The notes under the pieces were generated by a model that searched no databases, had not been told where the DNA came from, and saw nothing but the letters and a program-made list of their open reading frames with translations. The position numbers and the translations under genes are program-made. 64,000 bases of DNA from Clostridium sp. Cult3 (GTDB lineage Bacteria > Bacillota > Clostridia > Tissierellales > Tepidimicrobiaceae), in assembly GCF_021655115.1 (NCBI RefSeq), contig NZ_PPXY01000009.1:1-64000 (forward strand). The letters run 5' to 3'. Below, in pieces: positions 5,513 through 25,874 of this stretch (positions are counted from its first letter, which is position 1; every line of letters starts with the position of its first letter).

Positions 5513-5980
5513 TTAGTTTAATTTTAATATAGATCTTACTGCGTCGTGAATTTCCTGATAGCTGGTGCATCTACATAGATTAGACTGTAGCCATTCTTCA
5601 ATAGTATACTCATCTGCATCGGGATGATGTATGGAAAGACTGTGGCATACCATGATAAATCCTGATGTACAATACCCACATTGAAAACCCCAGTTTTCTA
5701 CAAAAGCCTTTTGAATGGGGGTATTATTTAGTCCTTCTATGGTGGTGATTTTTTTACCTATGGTTTCTACTGTAAGCATAAGACAGGATTTAACAGGCCA
5801 ATCATCTATTAAGACAGTACAGGCACCACAGTCTCCATTTTCACAGCCAGGTTTTGCACCAGTTAATCCTAAGCCATTTCTAAGGGTATATAATAATGTG
5901 TCTGAAGGCTTGACAACAACCTCTCTATCTTCTCCATTGATATTTAAAACTAAAGTAGTATTGCCTGAAATATTGAGCAT
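5513..5980 (-). CDS. Molybdenum hydroxylase, [2Fe-2S] subunit
   Basis: A 155-residue protein with two Fe-S motifs of the xanthine dehydrogenase small-subunit family. The plant-type ferredoxin cluster is CENGDCGACTVLIDDWPVKSC and the C-terminal helical-bundle cluster is CGYC plus NLCRC. It passes electrons from the Mo-pterin site to FAD. It is the last gene of a three-gene operon: its ATG follows directly on the stop codon of the FAD subunit gene, and its ribosome binding site GGAGG lies inside that gene's last codons. No separate regulation is visible. The family assignment is firm; the substrate of the complex is not. Confidence 0.9.
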   Translation of the reverse strand: MLNISGNTTLVLNINGEDREVVVKPSDTLLYTLRNGLGLTGAKPGCENGDCGACTVLIDDWPVKSCLMLTVETIGKKITTIEGLNNTPIQKAFVENWGFQCGYCTSGFIMVCHSLSIHHPDADEYTIEEWLQSNLCRCTSYQEIHDAVRSILKLN

Positions 5981-6817
5981 TTATATGACCTCCTGAAAAT
6001 TTTCTAAGGTTTCATTTAGCATAGTGTGGAGCAGAAATTTTCTATATTCAGACGAACCTCCCAGGTCATCTAATATTTCATAGGGAATATTTTTAATAAG
6101 CTTTTTAATCCTTTCGTCCTTGGGAAGGGATTTATCATTTAGGATATCTTCTAGTATATTAGATCTAAAGGGAAATTCACATAGACCACTAAAGGCTATA
6201 TTAATTTTACCTTGATCTACCAGTGCTACTAAGGTAATTAGTGGATAATCTATTTTTTCGTTTTTAGTCCTTTTCACATGTATCGATGGAAGATTTAAGT
6301 ATTTTTCATCAATAATGGCTTGAACTATCAATTCCTCCTTGGAAATTTTCAATTCCTTAAAAAACACATCCATTATGGGAATTGTTCTACTGCCCTTTAT
6401 TCCTTCTAGAACTATATTCGCATTGGCCACCATAAGGGGGAGCATTGCCTCCTTGTATATGATGGTTCCTGCTAAATTTCCTCCTAGGGTGATTTTGTCC
6501 TGTATAGTATGGTCAGAAATTCTATTAACTGCTAGGCTAAGTAGGGGAAATTGGTTTTGGGTAGCAATATGGGTAAGGGTTAGGGCAGAGCCAATGGTCA
6601 GTTTATTGTTTTCCAATACATGGATATTACATTCTGGAATAGCCTTTATGTCTATCACAGCTTCAGCGTGGACATTGTGAACTCTTGCCATACTGATAAA
6701 TTCAGTACCACCACCATAGTAGATAGGGGATTTTCCTAAGGAATCCAATTGGGCATATAAACTAACTGCTTCAGCTAAAGTATTTGGTTTATAATAATCA
6801 AAATCAAAGGGAATCAT
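5981..6817 (-). CDS. Molybdenum hydroxylase, FAD-binding subunit
   Basis: A 278-residue protein of the CO dehydrogenase/xanthine dehydrogenase medium-subunit type. FAD-binding signatures are YYGGGTEF near residue 35 and TLGGNLAG near residue 110. The frame is open further upstream, but the real start is the ATG at 6817, five bases after GGAGG and beginning MIPFDFDYYKP, the usual family N-terminus. The upstream extension reads as antisense-like sequence. The start overlaps the end of the catalytic subunit gene by 14 nt, indicating translational coupling. FAD would pass electrons to NAD or another acceptor. Confidence 0.9.
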   Translation of the reverse strand: MIPFDFDYYKPNTLAEAVSLYAQLDSLGKSPIYYGGGTEFISMARVHNVHAEAVIDIKAIPECNIHVLENNKLTIGSALTLTHIATQNQFPLLSLAVNRISDHTIQDKITLGGNLAGTIIYKEAMLPLMVANANIVLEGIKGSRTIPIMDVFFKELKISKEELIVQAIIDEKYLNLPSIHVKRTKNEKIDYPLITLVALVDQGKINIAFSGLCEFPFRSNILEDILNDKSLPKDERIKKLIKNIPYEILDDLGGSSEYRKFLLHTMLNETLENFQEVI

Positions 6818-9149
6818 ACTTACCTCCAGTTTTAGTTTTCCATATGGTTTCAGGGGATATGGGTAGTATATCAAGATCAGCCTGGGAAGCAATAGATATT
6901 GCATTGGCAAAGGCTGCTGGTATTCCAATAATCCCATGTTCTGCTAAACCTCGAGCTCCAAAGGGGGCATCTATTTGTTCTGTTTCTAGAAATTCTACTA
7001 GATATTCTGGTTGTTCTCCAAAATGGATTAGTTTATAAGTTCTAAGGGAGGAGTTTTCCAATTTACCTTGGGAATTGTAAAGGAATTCTTCTCTAGTGGC
7101 TAAACCTAATCCCATGCTCATGCCACCCATCAGTAATCCCCTTGCTGCACAAGGATTGATTAATTTCCCTACATCTACAACAGTAGCTGCTTTCAATAAT
7201 CTATAATCGTATTTTACTGGATCATATTCTATTTCTACAGCTTGAGCCCCTACGGTTATGGATGGTCCTGTTCTCCCTTGACCAGTTTCTGGGTTTAAGG
7301 GGATTAAATGTTTCATTATGTAATTGCCATGGCCTATAATCTCCCCGCCAATGGAAGGGCCATCGGGGTATTTATATCCATGAGCTATATCCTTAAAATG
7401 GATAAATATACTAGGATCATCCCTAAAAAATACTTTTTGATTTGCCACTTCTAAATCATCAGGAGCACATCTAAGCACTATAGAACCTATGGATTTAATC
7501 TGTTTTATAATGGAATTACAAGCTCTTATGGCAGCAGTTCCTGCCATAAAGGTTGTCATACTGGCCACGGTTTTCCAATGTTTTGGACTAACTTGAGTAT
7601 TCACCTCCATTAAGGGGTGCACCTTGTTTATATCCATCTTCATCTTCTCTGCTACTATTTGACATATGGTGGTTTTCATTCCAGGACCAATTTCTACTGC
7701 ACCAAAGTTTACATCTACACCACCATCGGAGTTTAATTTTAATATTACTCCAGACATAGCATCTGGTGCAGAATTAGAGGTTTTCCAAAAACAAGCCATA
7801 CCTTTAGCTTTTATGGTGCCATCGATATTTTGTATTATTTGACCTTCTTCCCAATTGATGAGGGTTTTTAGCTTATTTATACAGTTTGATATATTCCCAG
7901 TATTGCTGAAAGTCACTTTAGTTTGTGTAGGCGTTGTATTTCCTTCTTTTATGGCATTTTTTAGCCTAAGCTCTAAGGGATCCATATCTAATGCTATTGC
8001 TAGCTTATCTATGGATCTTTCTACAGGAAAGGCAGCAGATACATGGCCAAATCCTCTATAGGAGGTTACATATATATGATTTGTGTATACAGCTAAGGCA
8101 TCGCAGTAAACATTTTCTATATTGTAGGGACCAGTACAGGAACTGGCAATGGCCTTAGCCATACGAGGCCCTGTGTCGGAATAGGCGCCACAATCTACCA
8201 AGTAAGTGGCTTCTAATGCTTTTATTATTCCATCCTTAGTAGCTCCTATCTTAATCTTTGCGTCTACACCTATTTTAGATGGAGAACTAAATATATCCTG
8301 TTCTCTGGTATTGGCAATTCTAACCTTGCGACCACCTACAGCTAAAGAGGCAATATAGGCTATAAATTCTAGTTGAACTGTAGCTTTACCACCAAAGGCG
8401 CCACCTACCAAGGGAGTTCGTACTATTATTTTACTTTTAGAAATCCCAAATACTTTACTTAACTCTTCTTTTACTGCAAAGGGGGCTTGGGATGAAGTAT
8501 TTATTATAACTTCTCCGCTAGGTAGTATTTCTGCTGTGGCATTTCTAGTTTCCATAGCTATATGGTCCGATTGGGGTAGGGAATAACTATGTTCTAAAAC
8601 TATATAGGATCCACTAAAGGCTTTATCAACATCTCCTTTTCTGATTTTAGTGGAACCTGCAATATTAGTGTTCAGTTGTGGATTAGCTTCTACACTGGGA
8701 TGATGATATTGGCTTAATTTTTCGTGTACCAATATTGAATCTTCTCTTAAAGCATCTTGAACAGAATTAACAACTGGTAATGGATCATATATTACATCAA
8801 TTAGTTTTGTAGCATAGGCTGCTTCCTGCTCTGTATTTGCAATAACTACAGCCACAGGTTCACCGAAATACCTTACCTTATCTTTTGCAATAGGAGGTCT
8901 ATCTTCTATAATAGAACCAGTTAATATGGGGAGAAATTCTCCAGTAATTATTGCCTGGACTCCACTATACCTTTCTGCTTTTCTTGTATCAATGGATTTT
9001 ATGATTGCATGGGCATGGGTACTAGTTAATATCTTTGCATGTAAAGTATCTACTGTAATATGATCTCCATTATATTTTGCACGTCCAGTAACCTTATTCC
9101 AGGATTCTTTTTTAGGTATGCTTACTCCAATTTGTGGTACATAGTCCAT
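6804..9149 (-). CDS. Molybdenum hydroxylase, molybdopterin-binding catalytic subunit
   Basis: A 781-residue large subunit of the xanthine oxidase family. The N-terminal a/b hammerhead domain begins VTGRAKYNGD. The cofactor-binding loop GGAFGGK is intact, SYRGFGHVSAAF matches the substrate-channel loop, and GLAEHGIIGIPAAFANAI carries the expected catalytic glutamate. Such enzymes hydroxylate purines, nicotinate or other N-heterocycles or aldehydes. The loop residues do not let me choose among them, and it lacks the CO dehydrogenase cysteine loop. The start at 9149 is chosen because TTGGAGGAA sits just upstream; the 14 extra upstream codons have no binding site. No XdhC-type maturation or molybdopterin synthesis gene is nearby. 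Confidence 0.9.
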   Translation of the reverse strand: MDYVPQIGVSIPKKESWNKVTGRAKYNGDHITVDTLHAKILTSTHAHAIIKSIDTRKAERYSGVQAIITGEFLPILTGSIIEDRPPIAKDKVRYFGEPVAVVIANTEQEAAYATKLIDVIYDPLPVVNSVQDALREDSILVHEKLSQYHHPSVEANPQLNTNIAGSTKIRKGDVDKAFSGSYIVLEHSYSLPQSDHIAMETRNATAEILPSGEVIINTSSQAPFAVKEELSKVFGISKSKIIVRTPLVGGAFGGKATVQLEFIAYIASLAVGGRKVRIANTREQDIFSSPSKIGVDAKIKIGATKDGIIKALEATYLVDCGAYSDTGPRMAKAIASSCTGPYNIENVYCDALAVYTNHIYVTSYRGFGHVSAAFPVERSIDKLAIALDMDPLELRLKNAIKEGNTTPTQTKVTFSNTGNISNCINKLKTLINWEEGQIIQNIDGTIKAKGMACFWKTSNSAPDAMSGVILKLNSDGGVDVNFGAVEIGPGMKTTICQIVAEKMKMDINKVHPLMEVNTQVSPKHWKTVASMTTFMAGTAAIRACNSIIKQIKSIGSIVLRCAPDDLEVANQKVFFRDDPSIFIHFKDIAHGYKYPDGPSIGGEIIGHGNYIMKHLIPLNPETGQGRTGPSITVGAQAVEIEYDPVKYDYRLLKAATVVDVGKLINPCAARGLLMGGMSMGLGLATREEFLYNSQGKLENSSLRTYKLIHFGEQPEYLVEFLETEQIDAPFGARGLAEHGIIGIPAAFANAISIASQADLDILPISPETIWKTKTGGKYDSL

Positions 9150-9196
9150 AAAAATTCCTCCAATACATTTGATTAAAGATAGTTTGCCCAAAGGAA

Positions 9197-17664: not shown

Positions 17665-17753
17665 AACGGTTTTGACATAAAACAGTTGTTGAAGTTTAAT
17701 AAGGGTATGTTAGGGAATATATAGTTTATAGTTATGTAAAGGGGTGGATGGAA

Positions 17754-18689
17754 TTGATTTTAATCATAGCCTTAAACCCTTCAATTGACAGGAGGTATTT
17801 TATCAACGATTTTGAGGCAGGCAAAAGTTATTCTGCTTATGAGGTGGAATATACGCCTGGAGGGAATGGATTAAATACGGCAAAGATTATCAAATCCTTC
17901 AATGAACCCATAAAAGTAACGGGCTTTTGTGGAGGTAGAAGCGGTGAATATGTGAAAGAAACCTTAGATCATATGGGTATAGAACACGATTTTATTACCA
18001 TTAATGATGAGACTAGAAGTCGTATTGCTGTTCTATCGGATTATGGGGTACAGACGGAGATCGTAGAGAAAAGTCCCTCCATATCTGGGGAAGAGGTGCT
18101 CAAGCTTTATGAATTGTATAAGAATATGATACAAGATGCAGAAATAATCTGTGCCTCGGGAGAATTACCTAGGGGTCTGCCGGTAGATATTTATAGGGAT
18201 TTAATATTGATGGCTAAGGATCAAGGTAAGAAGTTTATTTTAGATACTAGTGGGGAGGCTTTGAAGCTTGGTATAAAAGCATCACCTTTTTTGATAAAGC
18301 CCAGCAGGAATGAATTGGAAGAGTTGATGGGTTTTATAATGACTTCTGAGGCAGAAATGGTTAAGGCAGCAAGATATATTACGGAAAACGGTGTAGAAAT
18401 AGCAGTTATTTCCTTAGGAAAAAATGGAGCCATTGTCCTCTATGGAGATTATTATTATAGGGTTAATGTTCCAAGTATTAAAGCTGTAAATCCAGCGGGA
18501 GCTGGAGATGCTATGATGGCAGGCCTTGCTGTTTCTCTGTTTAGGGATTACGATTTTGAATATGTGTTAAGGATAGGGGCTGCTTGTGGTGCTGCCAACG
18601 CTATGGAATCGGAGATGGGAAAAATTGATATGGCCCTTATGAAAAGTATAATGAATGAAATAGAAATTGAAAAAAGGTTGATATGGTAG
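17754..18689 (+). CDS. PfkB-family sugar kinase (1-phosphofructokinase/tagatose-6-phosphate kinase type)
   Basis: About 311 residues. ALNPSIDRRYF at the N-terminus and GGNGLNTAKIIKSF are the FruK/LacC pattern: residues that bind a phosphosugar, with GGNGxNxA as the first signature. NPAGAGDAMMAGLAVSL near residue 250 is PfkB signature 2 with the catalytic Asp of GAGD. It phosphorylates fructose 1-phosphate or tagatose 6-phosphate with ATP. No fru PTS or lac gene is next to it, so the substrate is not settled. ATG 17748 abuts the ribosome binding site; TTG 17754 gives the family-like MILIIALNP start and better spacing. Confidence 0.85.
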   Translation: MILIIALNPSIDRRYFINDFEAGKSYSAYEVEYTPGGNGLNTAKIIKSFNEPIKVTGFCGGRSGEYVKETLDHMGIEHDFITINDETRSRIAVLSDYGVQTEIVEKSPSISGEEVLKLYELYKNMIQDAEIICASGELPRGLPVDIYRDLILMAKDQGKKFILDTSGEALKLGIKASPFLIKPSRNELEELMGFIMTSEAEMVKAARYITENGVEIAVISLGKNGAIVLYGDYYYRVNVPSIKAVNPAGAGDAMMAGLAVSLFRDYDFEYVLRIGAACGAANAMESEMGKIDMALMKSIMNEIEIEKRLIW

Positions 18690-18722
18690 AATCCAAATTT
18701 TAAGATTAAAATTTGGATTCTA
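18687..18722. terminator. Bidirectional terminator
   Basis: Perfect 15-bp arms TAGAATCCAAATTTT (18687-18701) and AAAATTTGGATTCTA (18708-18722). It overlaps the end of the convergent fusion gene and ends both transcripts. Confidence 0.75.
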
Positions 18723-19995
18723 TTGATATAATATAGGATTTTTTTATATTTTTAAATACATATTCACCATGTTCTGCTATTAAAAATTCCTTAAGGAATT
18801 CTTTCAAGATTACCTTTTCCTCTTGAACATCTATATGGAATCTATCCATGAAAAAAGTTAATGCTTCATCAAAACTTAAGAAGTACTGAGAAAATTCGTA
18901 TTCAATCTCCTTATAGTCATAAATGTATTCTAAATAATCTAACATTCTTAATGTATCAGCTAATGTACCCTTATGGGTTCTCTGTTTATGGATAGGTCTA
19001 TCCAACCTTTTATATAGAATATCTCTTTTAAAATTTTCATCTTGATTCTCGAAAGAAGATATAATGAAACAATATTCATTGGTCAAATCCTTCATCTTTG
19101 CAATGCCTTCTATGGTTTTGGTACTGCCACCGCTAAATGCGGATATGGATATATCATGTCTATTGGTTTTTGCCCTATGGAAAGGGGAAATAATACAGTT
19201 TAGATTTTCTAACCCGTACTCTTGAGTTTTATCTACTAGAGAATGGATCATATGAAAAGAAGAATCTATAGCTGTTACATGAGCTCCTTCTTTCAATAAA
19301 GGTATGGCAAAAGCTCCTGTACCTGCCCCTATATCCAATGTTTTTTTACCCGCTAGGCTTCCTGTATACTTTTTTATTTCTTTTAAAAAGGCATAAGGGT
19401 AAGCGTTCTTTGGATGTTCCAAAGCATCATTATACCAATCTATTCTATCTTTGCTCCAGCTAAAGCTAGTAGTTTTTTTAAAAGGTACACCAAAGTCTTT
19501 AAGCATATCTATTATTTCCTGGTAAATATAATTCCTATTTTTCTCAGTAATCTCTATGACTAAAACATCATCCCTAGCTCTAATACTATTTAAAAAATGA
19601 CAATCATAATCTTTTAAAACCCCTAATATTATTTTGTTGCTATCTAGTAGTTCAAATACCTTTGAAGTAAAGGGGTCTATATCCTGTTCCATGAAGCCTA
19701 ACTCATCCATCACTATTAAATCCCTATTTTTCAAGCTTTTATCTAGAGTAGATGTAATGCCATATTTGAAATTATCTATAAATATCTCTTTTGAGAAGGT
19801 TCGTCTATCTACTTTGGCAATAGGATATTTTTCTATATAGTTGTATAGTGATCTTATGGTAAAGGTTTTTATGTGTTCTTCAATCCTCTTTTCTGTAATA
19901 TACCCTCCTATGGAAAGATCAATTTCTTCAAGTATCTTCTTTAAAAGAGTAGATTTTCCTACACCAATTTTTCCTGTTAAGAAAAGATTATTCAT
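18706..19995 (-). CDS. Fusion of THEP1-like NTPase and class I SAM methyltransferase
   Basis: A 429-residue two-domain protein. Residues 1 to about 170 form a small P-loop NTPase of the nucleoside-triphosphatase (THEP1, NTPase_1) type: Walker A GKIGVGKST (8-16), GGYIT, and Walker B LIVMDELG with Asp97-Glu98. Residues about 185-429 form a Rossmann methyltransferase: motif I DIGAGTG (221-227), with VTAIDSS as the acidic end of strand 2. The two frames are joined without a break, so this is a true fusion. I do not recognise a named member; the methyl acceptor is unknown, and the NTPase part may gate or power the transferase. ATG start, monocistronic, antisense to its neighbours. Confidence 0.8.
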   Translation of the reverse strand: MNNLFLTGKIGVGKSTLLKKILEEIDLSIGGYITEKRIEEHIKTFTIRSLYNYIEKYPIAKVDRRTFSKEIFIDNFKYGITSTLDKSLKNRDLIVMDELGFMEQDIDPFTSKVFELLDSNKIILGVLKDYDCHFLNSIRARDDVLVIEITEKNRNYIYQEIIDMLKDFGVPFKKTTSFSWSKDRIDWYNDALEHPKNAYPYAFLKEIKKYTGSLAGKKTLDIGAGTGAFAIPLLKEGAHVTAIDSSFHMIHSLVDKTQEYGLENLNCIISPFHRAKTNRHDISISAFSGGSTKTIEGIAKMKDLTNEYCFIISSFENQDENFKRDILYKRLDRPIHKQRTHKGTLADTLRMLDYLEYIYDYKEIEYEFSQYFLSFDEALTFFMDRFHIDVQEEKVILKEFLKEFLIAEHGEYVFKNIKKSYIISIESKF

Positions 19996-20274: not shown

Positions 20275-21030
20275 ATGCAAATAGTAAAATGCATATCAAC
20301 CATAGAAGAATTTTCACCAGTGGAATTTGAAACCTTAAATATAGGTGTAGAGATACAGGAGTTTGTTGAACCAAATTTAAAAGATGATGAAATAGAAAAT
20401 TTAGTATATGAATACGAAAAGCTACTAAAAAATTTTTCCCATACAAAATCTTTACATGGACCCTTTTTAGATCTAAAGCCAGCTAGTCCAGATAGGGATA
20501 TTAGAAATATAAGTTACAAAAAATATCTTAGAACTTTAGAAATAGCTAGGGAATTAGATATGGATTATGTAATATTTCATAGTCAAATAAATCCATGGCT
20601 TAATGAACCCTATATTAAATCTTTAAATAATAATCAAAACAAGGATTTTTGGCATCATATATTAGAAGATATAAAAGGATTTAAAGGGCAGATCGTACTG
20701 GAAAATATATTTGAGGACGATCCGTTGATTTTAAAAGAACTTATAGAAACTATAGATTTTCCCAATATAAGGGTTTGTTTAGACATAGGCCATGCTAAGC
20801 TTAGAACCAGTAAGCCTTTAGAAAAATGGGTAAAAGAATTAGGTCAATATGTAGAATATGTTCATCTTCACTGGAACGAAGGATTATATGATGAGCATGT
20901 AAGACCAGAGGATGAGGATATTAGCTATGTTAAAGAATTGTTATCAAAATACAATACAAATCCTATAGTAGCATTGGAATATAAGGTAAATGATCTCAAA
21001 AGAGAAACTCAACGAATAAACAGATTATAA
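20275..21030 (+). CDS. Xylose isomerase-like TIM-barrel protein
   Basis: A 251-residue protein of the AP endonuclease 2/sugar phosphate isomerase-epimerase fold. The barrel-strand ends carry the usual metal and substrate residues: SLHGPF, YVIFHSQINPW, IVLENIFEDDP, VCLDIGHAKL and YVHLHWNEGLYDEH. These HxE-E-D-H positions fit a single divalent metal site. The superfamily includes endonuclease IV, sugar isomerases and inosose dehydratases; at 251 residues and without endonuclease IV hallmarks, a sugar-like substrate is more likely. ATG start after AGAGGCGAT. Monocistronic; neighbours give no pathway clue. Confidence 0.75.
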   Translation: MQIVKCISTIEEFSPVEFETLNIGVEIQEFVEPNLKDDEIENLVYEYEKLLKNFSHTKSLHGPFLDLKPASPDRDIRNISYKKYLRTLEIARELDMDYVIFHSQINPWLNEPYIKSLNNNQNKDFWHHILEDIKGFKGQIVLENIFEDDPLILKELIETIDFPNIRVCLDIGHAKLRTSKPLEKWVKELGQYVEYVHLHWNEGLYDEHVRPEDEDISYVKELLSKYNTNPIVALEYKVNDLKRETQRINRL

Positions 21031-21175: not shown

Positions 21176-21517
21176 ATGACCAATGAAGAATTCCAAAAAA
21201 TAGTATTAGAAGAAATTAAGGCATTAAGGAAAGACGTCATAGAATTAAAGGAAGGGCAATCGGAATTAGAGCAGGGGCAATCGAAATTAGAGCAGGGGCA
21301 ATCGAAATTAGAGCAAGGGCAATCGAAATTAGAGCAGGGACAAGAAGAGATAAGGAAGGATCTAAAGGCTGTAATCGAACAGACCGCTGATTTGACTGAA
21401 TTTAGACAAGAAGTTAATGAAAAATTAGATACATTGATTGAAGAAAATGATATAATTAAAGAAATAAATGGTAGACATGAAGTAGATATTAGAAGGTTGA
21501 AAAGAAGAATAATATAA
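21176..21517 (+). CDS. Heptad-repeat coiled-coil protein, short paralogue
   Basis: A 113-residue hydrophilic protein. Residues 1-22 (MTNEEFQKIVLEEIKALRKD) form a short helix, five tandem heptads of the type K-L-E-Q-G-Q-S follow, and the tail reads DLKAVIEQTADLTEFRQEVN then a charged helix. It has no signal peptide or membrane helix. The head and tail are nearly identical to the gene at 25389, which has twelve heptads, so the two differ mainly by repeat number. Similar Clostridia proteins have no assigned function; oligomerisation is the only safe inference. A -10 TATAAT lies at 21139-21144. ATG start after GGGGG. Confidence 0.7.
   Translation: MTNEEFQKIVLEEIKALRKDVIELKEGQSELEQGQSKLEQGQSKLEQGQSKLEQGQEEIRKDLKAVIEQTADLTEFRQEVNEKLDTLIEENDIIKEINGRHEVDIRRLKRRII
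21242..21346 (+). repeat. Five tandem 21-bp coding repeats
   Basis: Units of 21 bp encode heptads (K/E)-L-E-Q-G-Q-(S/E). The inner copies are nearly identical at DNA level (AAATTAGAGCAGGGGCAATC type), implying recent slippage or unequal crossing-over. Confidence 0.8.
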
Positions 21518-25003: not shown

Positions 25004-25312
25004 TTTAAGCCTAGAAAAATGGATCCAAATGTAAGCTTTTCTATGGAATACAAGGGAATACCTAAAGAAGAAGCTAGGGAAAAGGGAAAAAAGTATTGAA
25101 CTCCATTGGAATAGATGAGGACAAACAGTCTAGATATCCATCTAATTTATCAGGTGGAGAACAACAAAGGGCAGCCATAGGCAGAACCTTAGCCACAGGA
25201 GCAAAGGTAATCTTAGCTGATGAGCCTACAGGAAATCTAGATGATGAAAATGGCAGAAGTCTCAGTTCATGTATGGAGAATAAAGGATGGTACTATTGAA
25301 AATGTAAAATAA
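25004..25312 (+). pseudogene. Relic of a MacB/LolD-type ABC transporter ATPase
   Basis: Three frames together read as the C-terminal half of an ABC ATPase: [15 protein letters not shown] in the first, then [17 protein letters not shown] (ABC signature) and [12 protein letters not shown] (Walker B) in the second, and [13 protein letters not shown] in the third. Walker A and the N-terminal half are missing. It lies in the gap between the carboxypeptidase and the long repeat gene. I infer a former exporter partner of this locus, perhaps of the lost response regulator at 21821. The gap from 24793 to 25003 shows nothing recognisable. Confidence 0.8.
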
Positions 25313-25388
25313 AATAAATAATTGCCTGTCTATATTTATATTATGATATAATATTATAACTAGGAAATTGAAGTTGGGGGGTATTAAT

Positions 25389-25874
25389 ATGACCAATGAA
25401 GAATTTCAAAAAATAGTGTTAGAGGAACTTAAAAAATTAAATGAAAAAGTAGACAATTTGGAACAAGGCCAAGCAAAACTAGGGCAGAGCCAAGTAAAAC
25501 TGGAGCAGAGTCAAACAAAACTGGAACAAGGCCAAGCAAAACTAGAGCAGAGTCAAACAAAACTGGAACAAGGGCAAGCAAAACTAGAGCAGAGTCAAAT
25601 AAAACTGGAACAAGGCCAAGCAAAACTGGAACAGAGCCAAACAAAACTAGAACAGGGGCAAGAAAAACTAAAACAAGGGCAAGGTAATTTAGAACAAGGA
25701 CAAGAAGATATAAGAAAAGACCTAAAATCAATAATTGAACAAACTGCAGATTTAACTGAATTTAGGGAAGAGATTAATGCAAAAGTAGATAGAGTAATAG
25801 AGGAGCTAAATACAATTGAAATAGTTACATCAAAAAATTGGAATGATATAGCAAGGCTAAAGTCAATAAAATAG
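25389..25874 (+). CDS. Heptad-repeat coiled-coil protein, long paralogue
   Basis: A 161-residue hydrophilic protein. The head MTNEEFQKIVLEELKKLNEK and tail RKDLKSIIEQTADLTEFREE match the paralogue at 21176 almost residue for residue, but the middle holds twelve heptads (K-L-E-Q-G-Q-A alternating with K-L-E-Q-S-Q-T). This predicts a long parallel coiled coil. It has no signal peptide or catalytic motif. The in-frame upstream extension lacks a binding site; the ATG follows GGGGGG at normal spacing. The -10 TATAAT at 25347-25352 sits in promoter sequence closely resembling that of the paralogue. Function unknown. Confidence 0.7.
   Translation: MTNEEFQKIVLEELKKLNEKVDNLEQGQAKLGQSQVKLEQSQTKLEQGQAKLEQSQTKLEQGQAKLEQSQIKLEQGQAKLEQSQTKLEQGQEKLKQGQGNLEQGQEDIRKDLKSIIEQTADLTEFREEINAKVDRVIEELNTIEIVTSKNWNDIARLKSIK
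25455..25706 (+). repeat. Twelve tandem 21-bp coding repeats
   Basis: Twelve 21-bp units encode heptads. The middle shows a 42-bp higher-order period in which GQA and SQT heptads alternate, as expected from duplication of a two-unit block. It is a candidate length-variable locus between strains. Confidence 0.8.

Follow-up and report, generated by a model that had tools for sequence, protein, structure and literature searches.

One gene in the window, the whole stretch of 64,000 nucleotides of DNA that was analysed and that comes from an anaerobic Firmicute, joins a THEP1-type NTPase to a class I SAM methyltransferase in a single protein. On balance, we consider this protein to be the fused form of a two-enzyme accessory module that matures XdhC-dependent molybdenum-cofactor enzymes (molybdenum hydroxylases). 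The evidence that favours this reading comprises intact motifs, purifying selection, a confident structural model, the operons in which the pair is found, its co-occurrence with XdhC across genomes, a second fusion of THEP1 to a methyltransferase and the molybdenum hydroxylases of the host. Archaea, bacteria and humans all have THEP1-type NTPases, a family that, to our knowledge, has no established biological role; the finishing of the cofactors of XdhC-type molybdenum hydroxylases, selenium-dependent ones included, is only partly known.

One reading frame encodes an NTPase and a methyltransferase

The frame of the fusion gene is intact over exactly the span given in Table 1, with 429 amino acids, an ATG start and no internal stops. 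Its N-terminal half matches the Pfam family NTPase_1 (PF03266) over the whole domain, positions 1-168 of 168, at 103.9 bits against a curated cut-off of 23.9 (E = 1.1e-29), and both the Walker A and the Walker B motifs are intact. Class I methyltransferase profiles match residues 213-276 of the protein, with Methyltransf_25 above its cut-off at residues 220-276 (E = 2.7e-7). This half has a Rossmann-like fold, in which motif I shows its GxGxG (LDIGAGTG) and strand 2 ends in an acidic residue (VTAID), and the motif I glycines and the strand-2-end aspartate are invariant or nearly so among 25 aligned members of its family, which is described by profile A2. The protein thus has two predicted catalytic halves, an NTPase and a methyltransferase. 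The first-pass annotation had described an unbroken frame joining a P-loop NTPase to methyltransferase motif I, which is borne out by the ORF, by Pfam and by full-length relatives; the domain search that it had proposed found NTPase_1 and Methyltransf_25, both above cut-off, in the one frame.

Profile A2 was built from 25 members, and separates true members, which score at least 168 bits across the whole profile, from the other methyltransferases of the same genomes, which score below about 70; the domain in the window scores 254 bits. None of the NCBIfam families reached its cut-off for the methyltransferase half. The nearest was CpaM (NF043040), at 37.9 bits against a cut-off of 180 and with a match of only about 50 residues around motif I, and corrinoid methylation was therefore rejected as a candidate function. 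A search of the literature for THEP1 or NTPase_1 combined with a methyltransferase, XdhC or molybdenum returned nothing relevant, although this does not prove absence. The first-pass remark that the combination was not known as a named enzyme is supported.

The structure of the fusion was predicted with AlphaFold from A3, the smaller alignment, which was chosen by a row-placement test. The model is confident in both domains (mean pLDDT 91.9, pTM 0.89). In Foldseek searches of PDB structures the methyltransferase half resembled solved, generic small-molecule methyltransferases, with E values down to 1e-12; only generic methyltransferases were among the matches, none of them pointing to a substrate.

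Table 1. Coordinates of the fusion gene, its parts and related features (window positions unless a locus is named).
Feature	Position	Strand	Basis or remark
Fusion gene: THEP1-type NTPase, then class I SAM methyltransferase	18706..19995	-	ORF, Pfam, full-length relatives
NTPase_1 / THEP1 domain, residues 3-162	19510..19989	-	Pfam
Walker A GKIGVGKST, residues 8-16	19948..19974	-	sequence
Walker B LIVMDELG, residues 93-100	19696..19719	-	sequence
Junction VPFKKTTSFSW, residues 170-180	19456..19488	-	comparison with the NTPase-only gene of G003
Methyltransferase domain, residues 175-429, unnamed family of profile A2	18709..19473	-	profile A2, 254 bits
Methyltransferase motif I LDIGAGTG, residues 220-227	19315..19338	-	sequence; glycines conserved in A2
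Bidirectional terminator-like hairpin at the convergent ends of the fusion and PfkB genes	18681..18729	.	-20.6 kcal/mol, z -5.7
Molybdenum hydroxylase 2Fe-2S subunit	5513-5980	-	Fer2_2
Molybdenum hydroxylase FAD subunit	5981-6937	-	FAD_binding_5
Molybdenum hydroxylase Mo-binding subunit	6804-9191	-	MoCoBD_1/2, Ald_Xan_dh_C
Second THEP1-methyltransferase fusion	L140 8944-10155; L141 1203-2408	-	adjoins XdhC, TrsS/DVU_1551-type cluster

Conservation and origin of the fusion

Full-length relatives of the fusion are present in six other genomes, with identities of 71% (G016), 63% (G010), 58% (G020, the first 27 residues lying outside the match) and 36% (G021, G038 and G051); the fusion is thus neither an assembly artefact nor a chance join. 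Comparison of the window with G016 gave a dN/dS of approximately 0.21 overall (0.23 for the NTPase half and 0.19 for the methyltransferase half), and both halves are under purifying selection. In the methyltransferase tree of full domains the seven fused proteins form one clade with a support of 100/100, so that a single origin is the simplest reading. The fusion spans three family-level groups, and most of the methyltransferases that group closest to it without being fused (89/88) belong to molybdenum-hydroxylase operons or loci.

Several close relatives carry THEP1 only. The THEP1 gene of G003 stops directly after VPFK, where the fused protein goes on as VPFKKTTSFSW, and that of G008 (L103) retains the PfkB neighbour that is found in the window; both probably arose by loss of the methyltransferase half.

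Surroundings of the gene in the window and in the host genome

The fusion gene is flanked by a convergent PfkB gene (17748-18689) and by a divergent gene for a TIM-barrel, sugar-isomerase-like protein (20275-21030), and therefore apparently forms a single-gene transcription unit. Further along the window, two genes (21176-21517 and 25368-25874, both +) encode short proteins that consist mostly of LEQGQSK-type heptad repeats and are probably coiled-coil, the second being far more repeat-rich, and a 67-residue remnant with the ABC-ATPase signature LSGGEQQR ... DEPTGNLD (25096-25299, +) apparently derives from a broken transporter gene.

The window also holds a three-gene molybdenum hydroxylase (5513-9191, -), distant from the fusion gene and with no accessory genes beside it, and the organism thus encodes such enzymes. 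Another contig of the host genome (L117) carries the FAD, FeS and Mo subunits of a molybdenum hydroxylase together with YqeC, MocA, YqeB and XdhC, and is a cluster of the selenium-dependent type. The Mo-binding subunit of that cluster is encoded by two consecutive overlapping genes (L117 3597-5926, +), a split that is repeated in L105 and L108.

Separate pairs in molybdenum-enzyme operons and importer loci

The first-pass annotation had called the fusion unusual, but the combination is less singular than that suggests: in many Clostridia the halves are usually separate neighbouring genes, and THEP1 is also fused to a different methyltransferase. The separate methyltransferase gene lies beside the THEP1 gene and often overlaps it (by 74, 31, 71, 4 and 4 nt in several pairs), which places the fusion one small step away. 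The comparison of gene neighbourhoods across Clostridia, suggested at the outset, located these separate pairs in operons of XdhC-dependent molybdenum hydroxylases, or with importers.

Among 40 methyltransferase loci, some of them almost identical to one another, 37 have THEP1 either in the same protein or no more than 8 kb away; the fusion served as query in retrieving many of these loci, which biases the count. In 17/40, a gene for XdhC, MocA or a hydroxylase lies within 8 kb, with whole operons in L105, L135 and L137. Eight loci fetched by the methyltransferase profile alone (L133-L139, L142) provide a fairer sample; here, THEP1 adjoins the methyltransferase in five and is one gene apart in another, and six have genes for a molybdenum enzyme, a FecCD/FecB importer or an ECF-type protein in the vicinity, while a seventh has DUF364.

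Three arrangements recur. In L137 (G108), YqeB, XdhC, MocA, YqeC, the Mo, FeS and FAD subunits, the methyltransferase and the NTPase follow one another on one strand, with similar operons in L135 (G131) and L105/L106 (G026/G042). The second frequent order is FecCD, ATPase, methyltransferase, FecB, XdhC and NTPase (L028, L043, L068 and others). The third, in L100 and L121, combines THEP1, an ECF importer and MobB with two further proteins, one phosphodiesterase-like and the other small, with a sulfite-oxidase-type domain. The pair is therefore found repeatedly in operons with XdhC, MocA or hydroxylase genes, the copy in the window being outside such an operon. The fused gene itself adjoins XdhC-MocA-YqeC in G021 and G051, and in G038 (L102 211-7105, -) it comes immediately downstream of genes that encode a formate-dehydrogenase-like molybdopterin oxidoreductase and, probably, two subunits for electron transfer.

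Some of these loci have further features of their own. The ECF set (L121 11706-16555, L100 13090-18162) consists of an ABC_cobalt S component, CbiQ and two ATPases; together with MobB, the sulfite-oxidase-type domain protein, which is membrane-anchored, and the phosphodiesterase-like protein, which is a lipoprotein, it makes up a candidate uptake system for the molybdenum cofactor or a precursor. In L119 and L120 a divergent THEP1-like protein of 156-162 residues adjoins XdhC and an ABC_cobalt-type membrane protein in a purine-degradation-like cluster. The SAO selenoprotein ABC system, considered because it combines ABC transport with selenium, was rejected, as the substrate-binding and permease proteins of the importers match none of the Sao families.

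A second fusion of THEP1 to a methyltransferase

In two genomes (G108 and G153) THEP1 is fused to a UbiE-like methyltransferase that lies outside A2, scoring 25-30 bits against that profile, and in the NTPase tree both of these fusions stand apart from the window group. The operon of this second fusion includes XdhC, a DVU_1551 NTP transferase, a DVU_1553 ligase, a DVU_1556 methyltransferase and the radical-SAM protein TrsS. A stand-alone relative of its methyltransferase (E = 5e-41) occurs near THEP1 in a FecB-FecCD-ATPase run of Oscillibacter valericigenes (L050). Methyltransferases from two different families occupy an equivalent position, and nothing else suggests as strongly that a defined methylation step accompanies THEP1.

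Co-occurrence with XdhC across genomes

In a sample of 196 genomes of the same class (completeness at least 90%), the methyltransferase family is present in 8, THEP1 in 14, XdhC in 34 and YqeB in 26. All eight methyltransferase genomes contain XdhC (Fisher p = 4e-7) and all eight contain THEP1 (p = 6e-11), and 12 of the 14 THEP1 genomes contain XdhC (p = 8e-9); these p values are optimistic, as the genomes are related and the Fisher test takes no account of phylogeny. Relatedness does not explain all of the co-occurrence, however, because the eight methyltransferase genomes span six families. CpaM was tried as a control family but had no match anywhere and so provided no control. Among 61 close relatives, THEP1 is again associated with XdhC (25/28 vs 18/33, p = 0.004), and the methyltransferase family shows a weak trend (11/12 vs 32/49, p = 0.09), the one module genome without XdhC being G010, which is 78% complete. 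The genomic linkage of the pair to molybdenum enzymes is thus clear.

Within the XdhC-positive genomes of the class sample, THEP1 is present in 7/26 with YqeB and in 5/8 without, and is therefore not enriched with YqeB: the association is with the maturation of molybdenum hydroxylases and not with selenium itself. The module is not restricted to genomes with YqeB: G094 and G137 contain the methyltransferase, THEP1 and XdhC and lack YqeB.

Proposed role and alternative explanations

If the protein is indeed a maturation module, the class I methyltransferase half would use SAM to methylate a small molecule that takes part in cofactor handling; the acceptor might be the pterin-based cofactor, an intermediate that binds metal or a precursor that is imported. 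The THEP1 half would bind an NTP and hydrolyse it, so that the same substrate, or a linked one, is captured, activated or released and can then be passed towards XdhC; we infer that both halves act on one substrate. The earlier suggestion of a cofactor methylation is borne out as far as the involvement of a cofactor system goes: gene neighbourhoods and co-occurrence both indicate that of the molybdenum enzymes. It is conceivable, albeit doubtful, that SAM-dependent methylation gated or powered by the THEP1 NTPase constitutes an undescribed step by which anaerobic bacteria mature or salvage the molybdenum cofactor, and that its importance has led to at least two fusions with methyltransferases of different families. 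Several observations speak against a role in maturation. The fusion in the window lies away from the hydroxylase clusters, between PfkB kinase and sugar-isomerase-like genes; of the 34 XdhC genomes in the class sample, 22 have no THEP1 and 26 no methyltransferase, which means that XdhC-type maturation can proceed without the module; THEP1 is often alone, with the single-contig genome G008 having THEP1 but no methyltransferase, XdhC or YqeB; and the methyltransferase fold is generic.

The main rival, which overlaps partly with the maturation reading and which we consider unlikely but not negligible, is that the pair serves uptake or salvage, processing a metal chelate or cofactor precursor from a FecCD/FecB-type ABC or ECF importer. 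The methyltransferase would then make or modify the chelator and the NTPase would drive its release or phosphorylation, with the supply of molybdenum enzymes as one use. FecCD/FecB genes within 8 kb in 16/40 methyltransferase loci and ECF-type genes in 7/40 argue for this possibility, as do the frequent order FecCD-ATPase-methyltransferase-FecB-(XdhC)-NTPase and the Oscillibacter run that holds the second methyltransferase. DUF364, which a structure paper (PMC2954201) connects with metal transport and pterin-like chelators on the basis of genome context, adjoins the pair in L060, L088 and L133 and is nearby in L135. Nevertheless, pairs occur in hydroxylase operons that have no importer (L105, L137), and the clade nearest to the fusion is mostly of this importer-free kind; in the window, the surroundings of the fused gene contain no importer genes, and the only FecB-type gene that the genome has stands first in an ordinary FecB-FecCD-ATPase set, which contains no methyltransferase.

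The frequency in methyltransferase genomes (6/8 in the class sample, 10/12 among relatives) of YqeB, the marker of selenium-dependent molybdenum hydroxylases, and the YqeB/YqeC neighbours in several operons would also fit a methyltransferase that methylates or protects the labile selenium species on which these hydroxylases rely; this is improbable, given that XdhC is the tighter correlate, that THEP1 is not enriched with YqeB and that both G094 and G137 lack YqeB. A role in purine or nucleotide metabolism is similarly hard to credit. THEP1 would here clear unusual purine nucleotides and the methyltransferase act on a purine, so that the hydroxylase link merely reflects purine-degradation operons, as might be indicated by L119 and L120, where THEP1 lies with XdhC and ABC_cobalt-type genes in what are probably clusters for purine degradation, and by the permease- and amidohydrolase-like neighbours of the host cluster L117. 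The pair, however, also accompanies importers, DUF364 and MobB, a THEP1-methyltransferase fusion is present in a TrsS-type aldehyde-oxidoreductase maturation cluster, and one fused gene adjoins a formate-dehydrogenase-like gene. Finally, the apparent loss of the methyltransferase half in G003 and G008 indicates that the halves are separable, as would be expected of a neutral fusion of two neighbouring genes with no joint function. This is very improbable for a fusion that is kept across three family-level groups with a dN/dS of about 0.2, when THEP1 has been fused to a methyltransferase twice and the co-occurrence of the two is very strong.

A role in maturation, if correct, would be the first for a protein family of unassigned job. 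The two fusions, the overlapping pairs and the strict co-occurrence with XdhC offer a testable candidate both for the role of THEP1 and for the finishing of hydroxylase cofactors, in the form of a two-gene or one-gene module whose removal should alter molybdenum-enzyme activity or cofactor chemistry.

Comparison with known systems

Known THEP1 proteins (NTPase_1, PF03266; NF010248; solved structures of Aquifex AQ_1292, 1ye8, and the human protein, 2i3b) resemble the whole N-terminal half of the fusion, with its intact Walker A and B motifs. The fusion differs from them in the added methyltransferase and in the link to molybdenum enzymes, and falls short of the NF010248 cut-off (94 bits, where 156 are required). 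MobB, a P-loop GTPase adaptor in molybdenum cofactor nucleotide synthesis, is likewise a P-loop NTPase and shares gene clusters with THEP1 (L100, L121, L025), but it belongs to another family (PF03205) and is never the fused part here. CpaM, the corrinoid protein-associated methyltransferase, is the best-scoring named family and shares the class I core; its score is far under the cut-off, and the methyltransferase of the fusion is not a member.

YqeB, YqeC and YgfJ have been defined as accessory proteins of selenium-dependent molybdenum hydroxylases (Haft and Self 2008, PMC2276186), and the passages of that paper that define the accessories name neither THEP1 nor the methyltransferase. This set (YqeB, YqeC, MocA/YgfJ) shares operons and genomes with the pair in many cases, whereas the pair is also found without YqeB. 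The XdhC / DVU_1551-1553-1556 / TrsS cluster (NF045664-NF045667, NF045646), which serves the maturation of aldehyde oxidoreductase, likewise combines a methyltransferase with XdhC and an NTP transferase; its operon in L140 and L141 includes a THEP1-methyltransferase fusion as well, the methyltransferase of which is of another family than that in the window.
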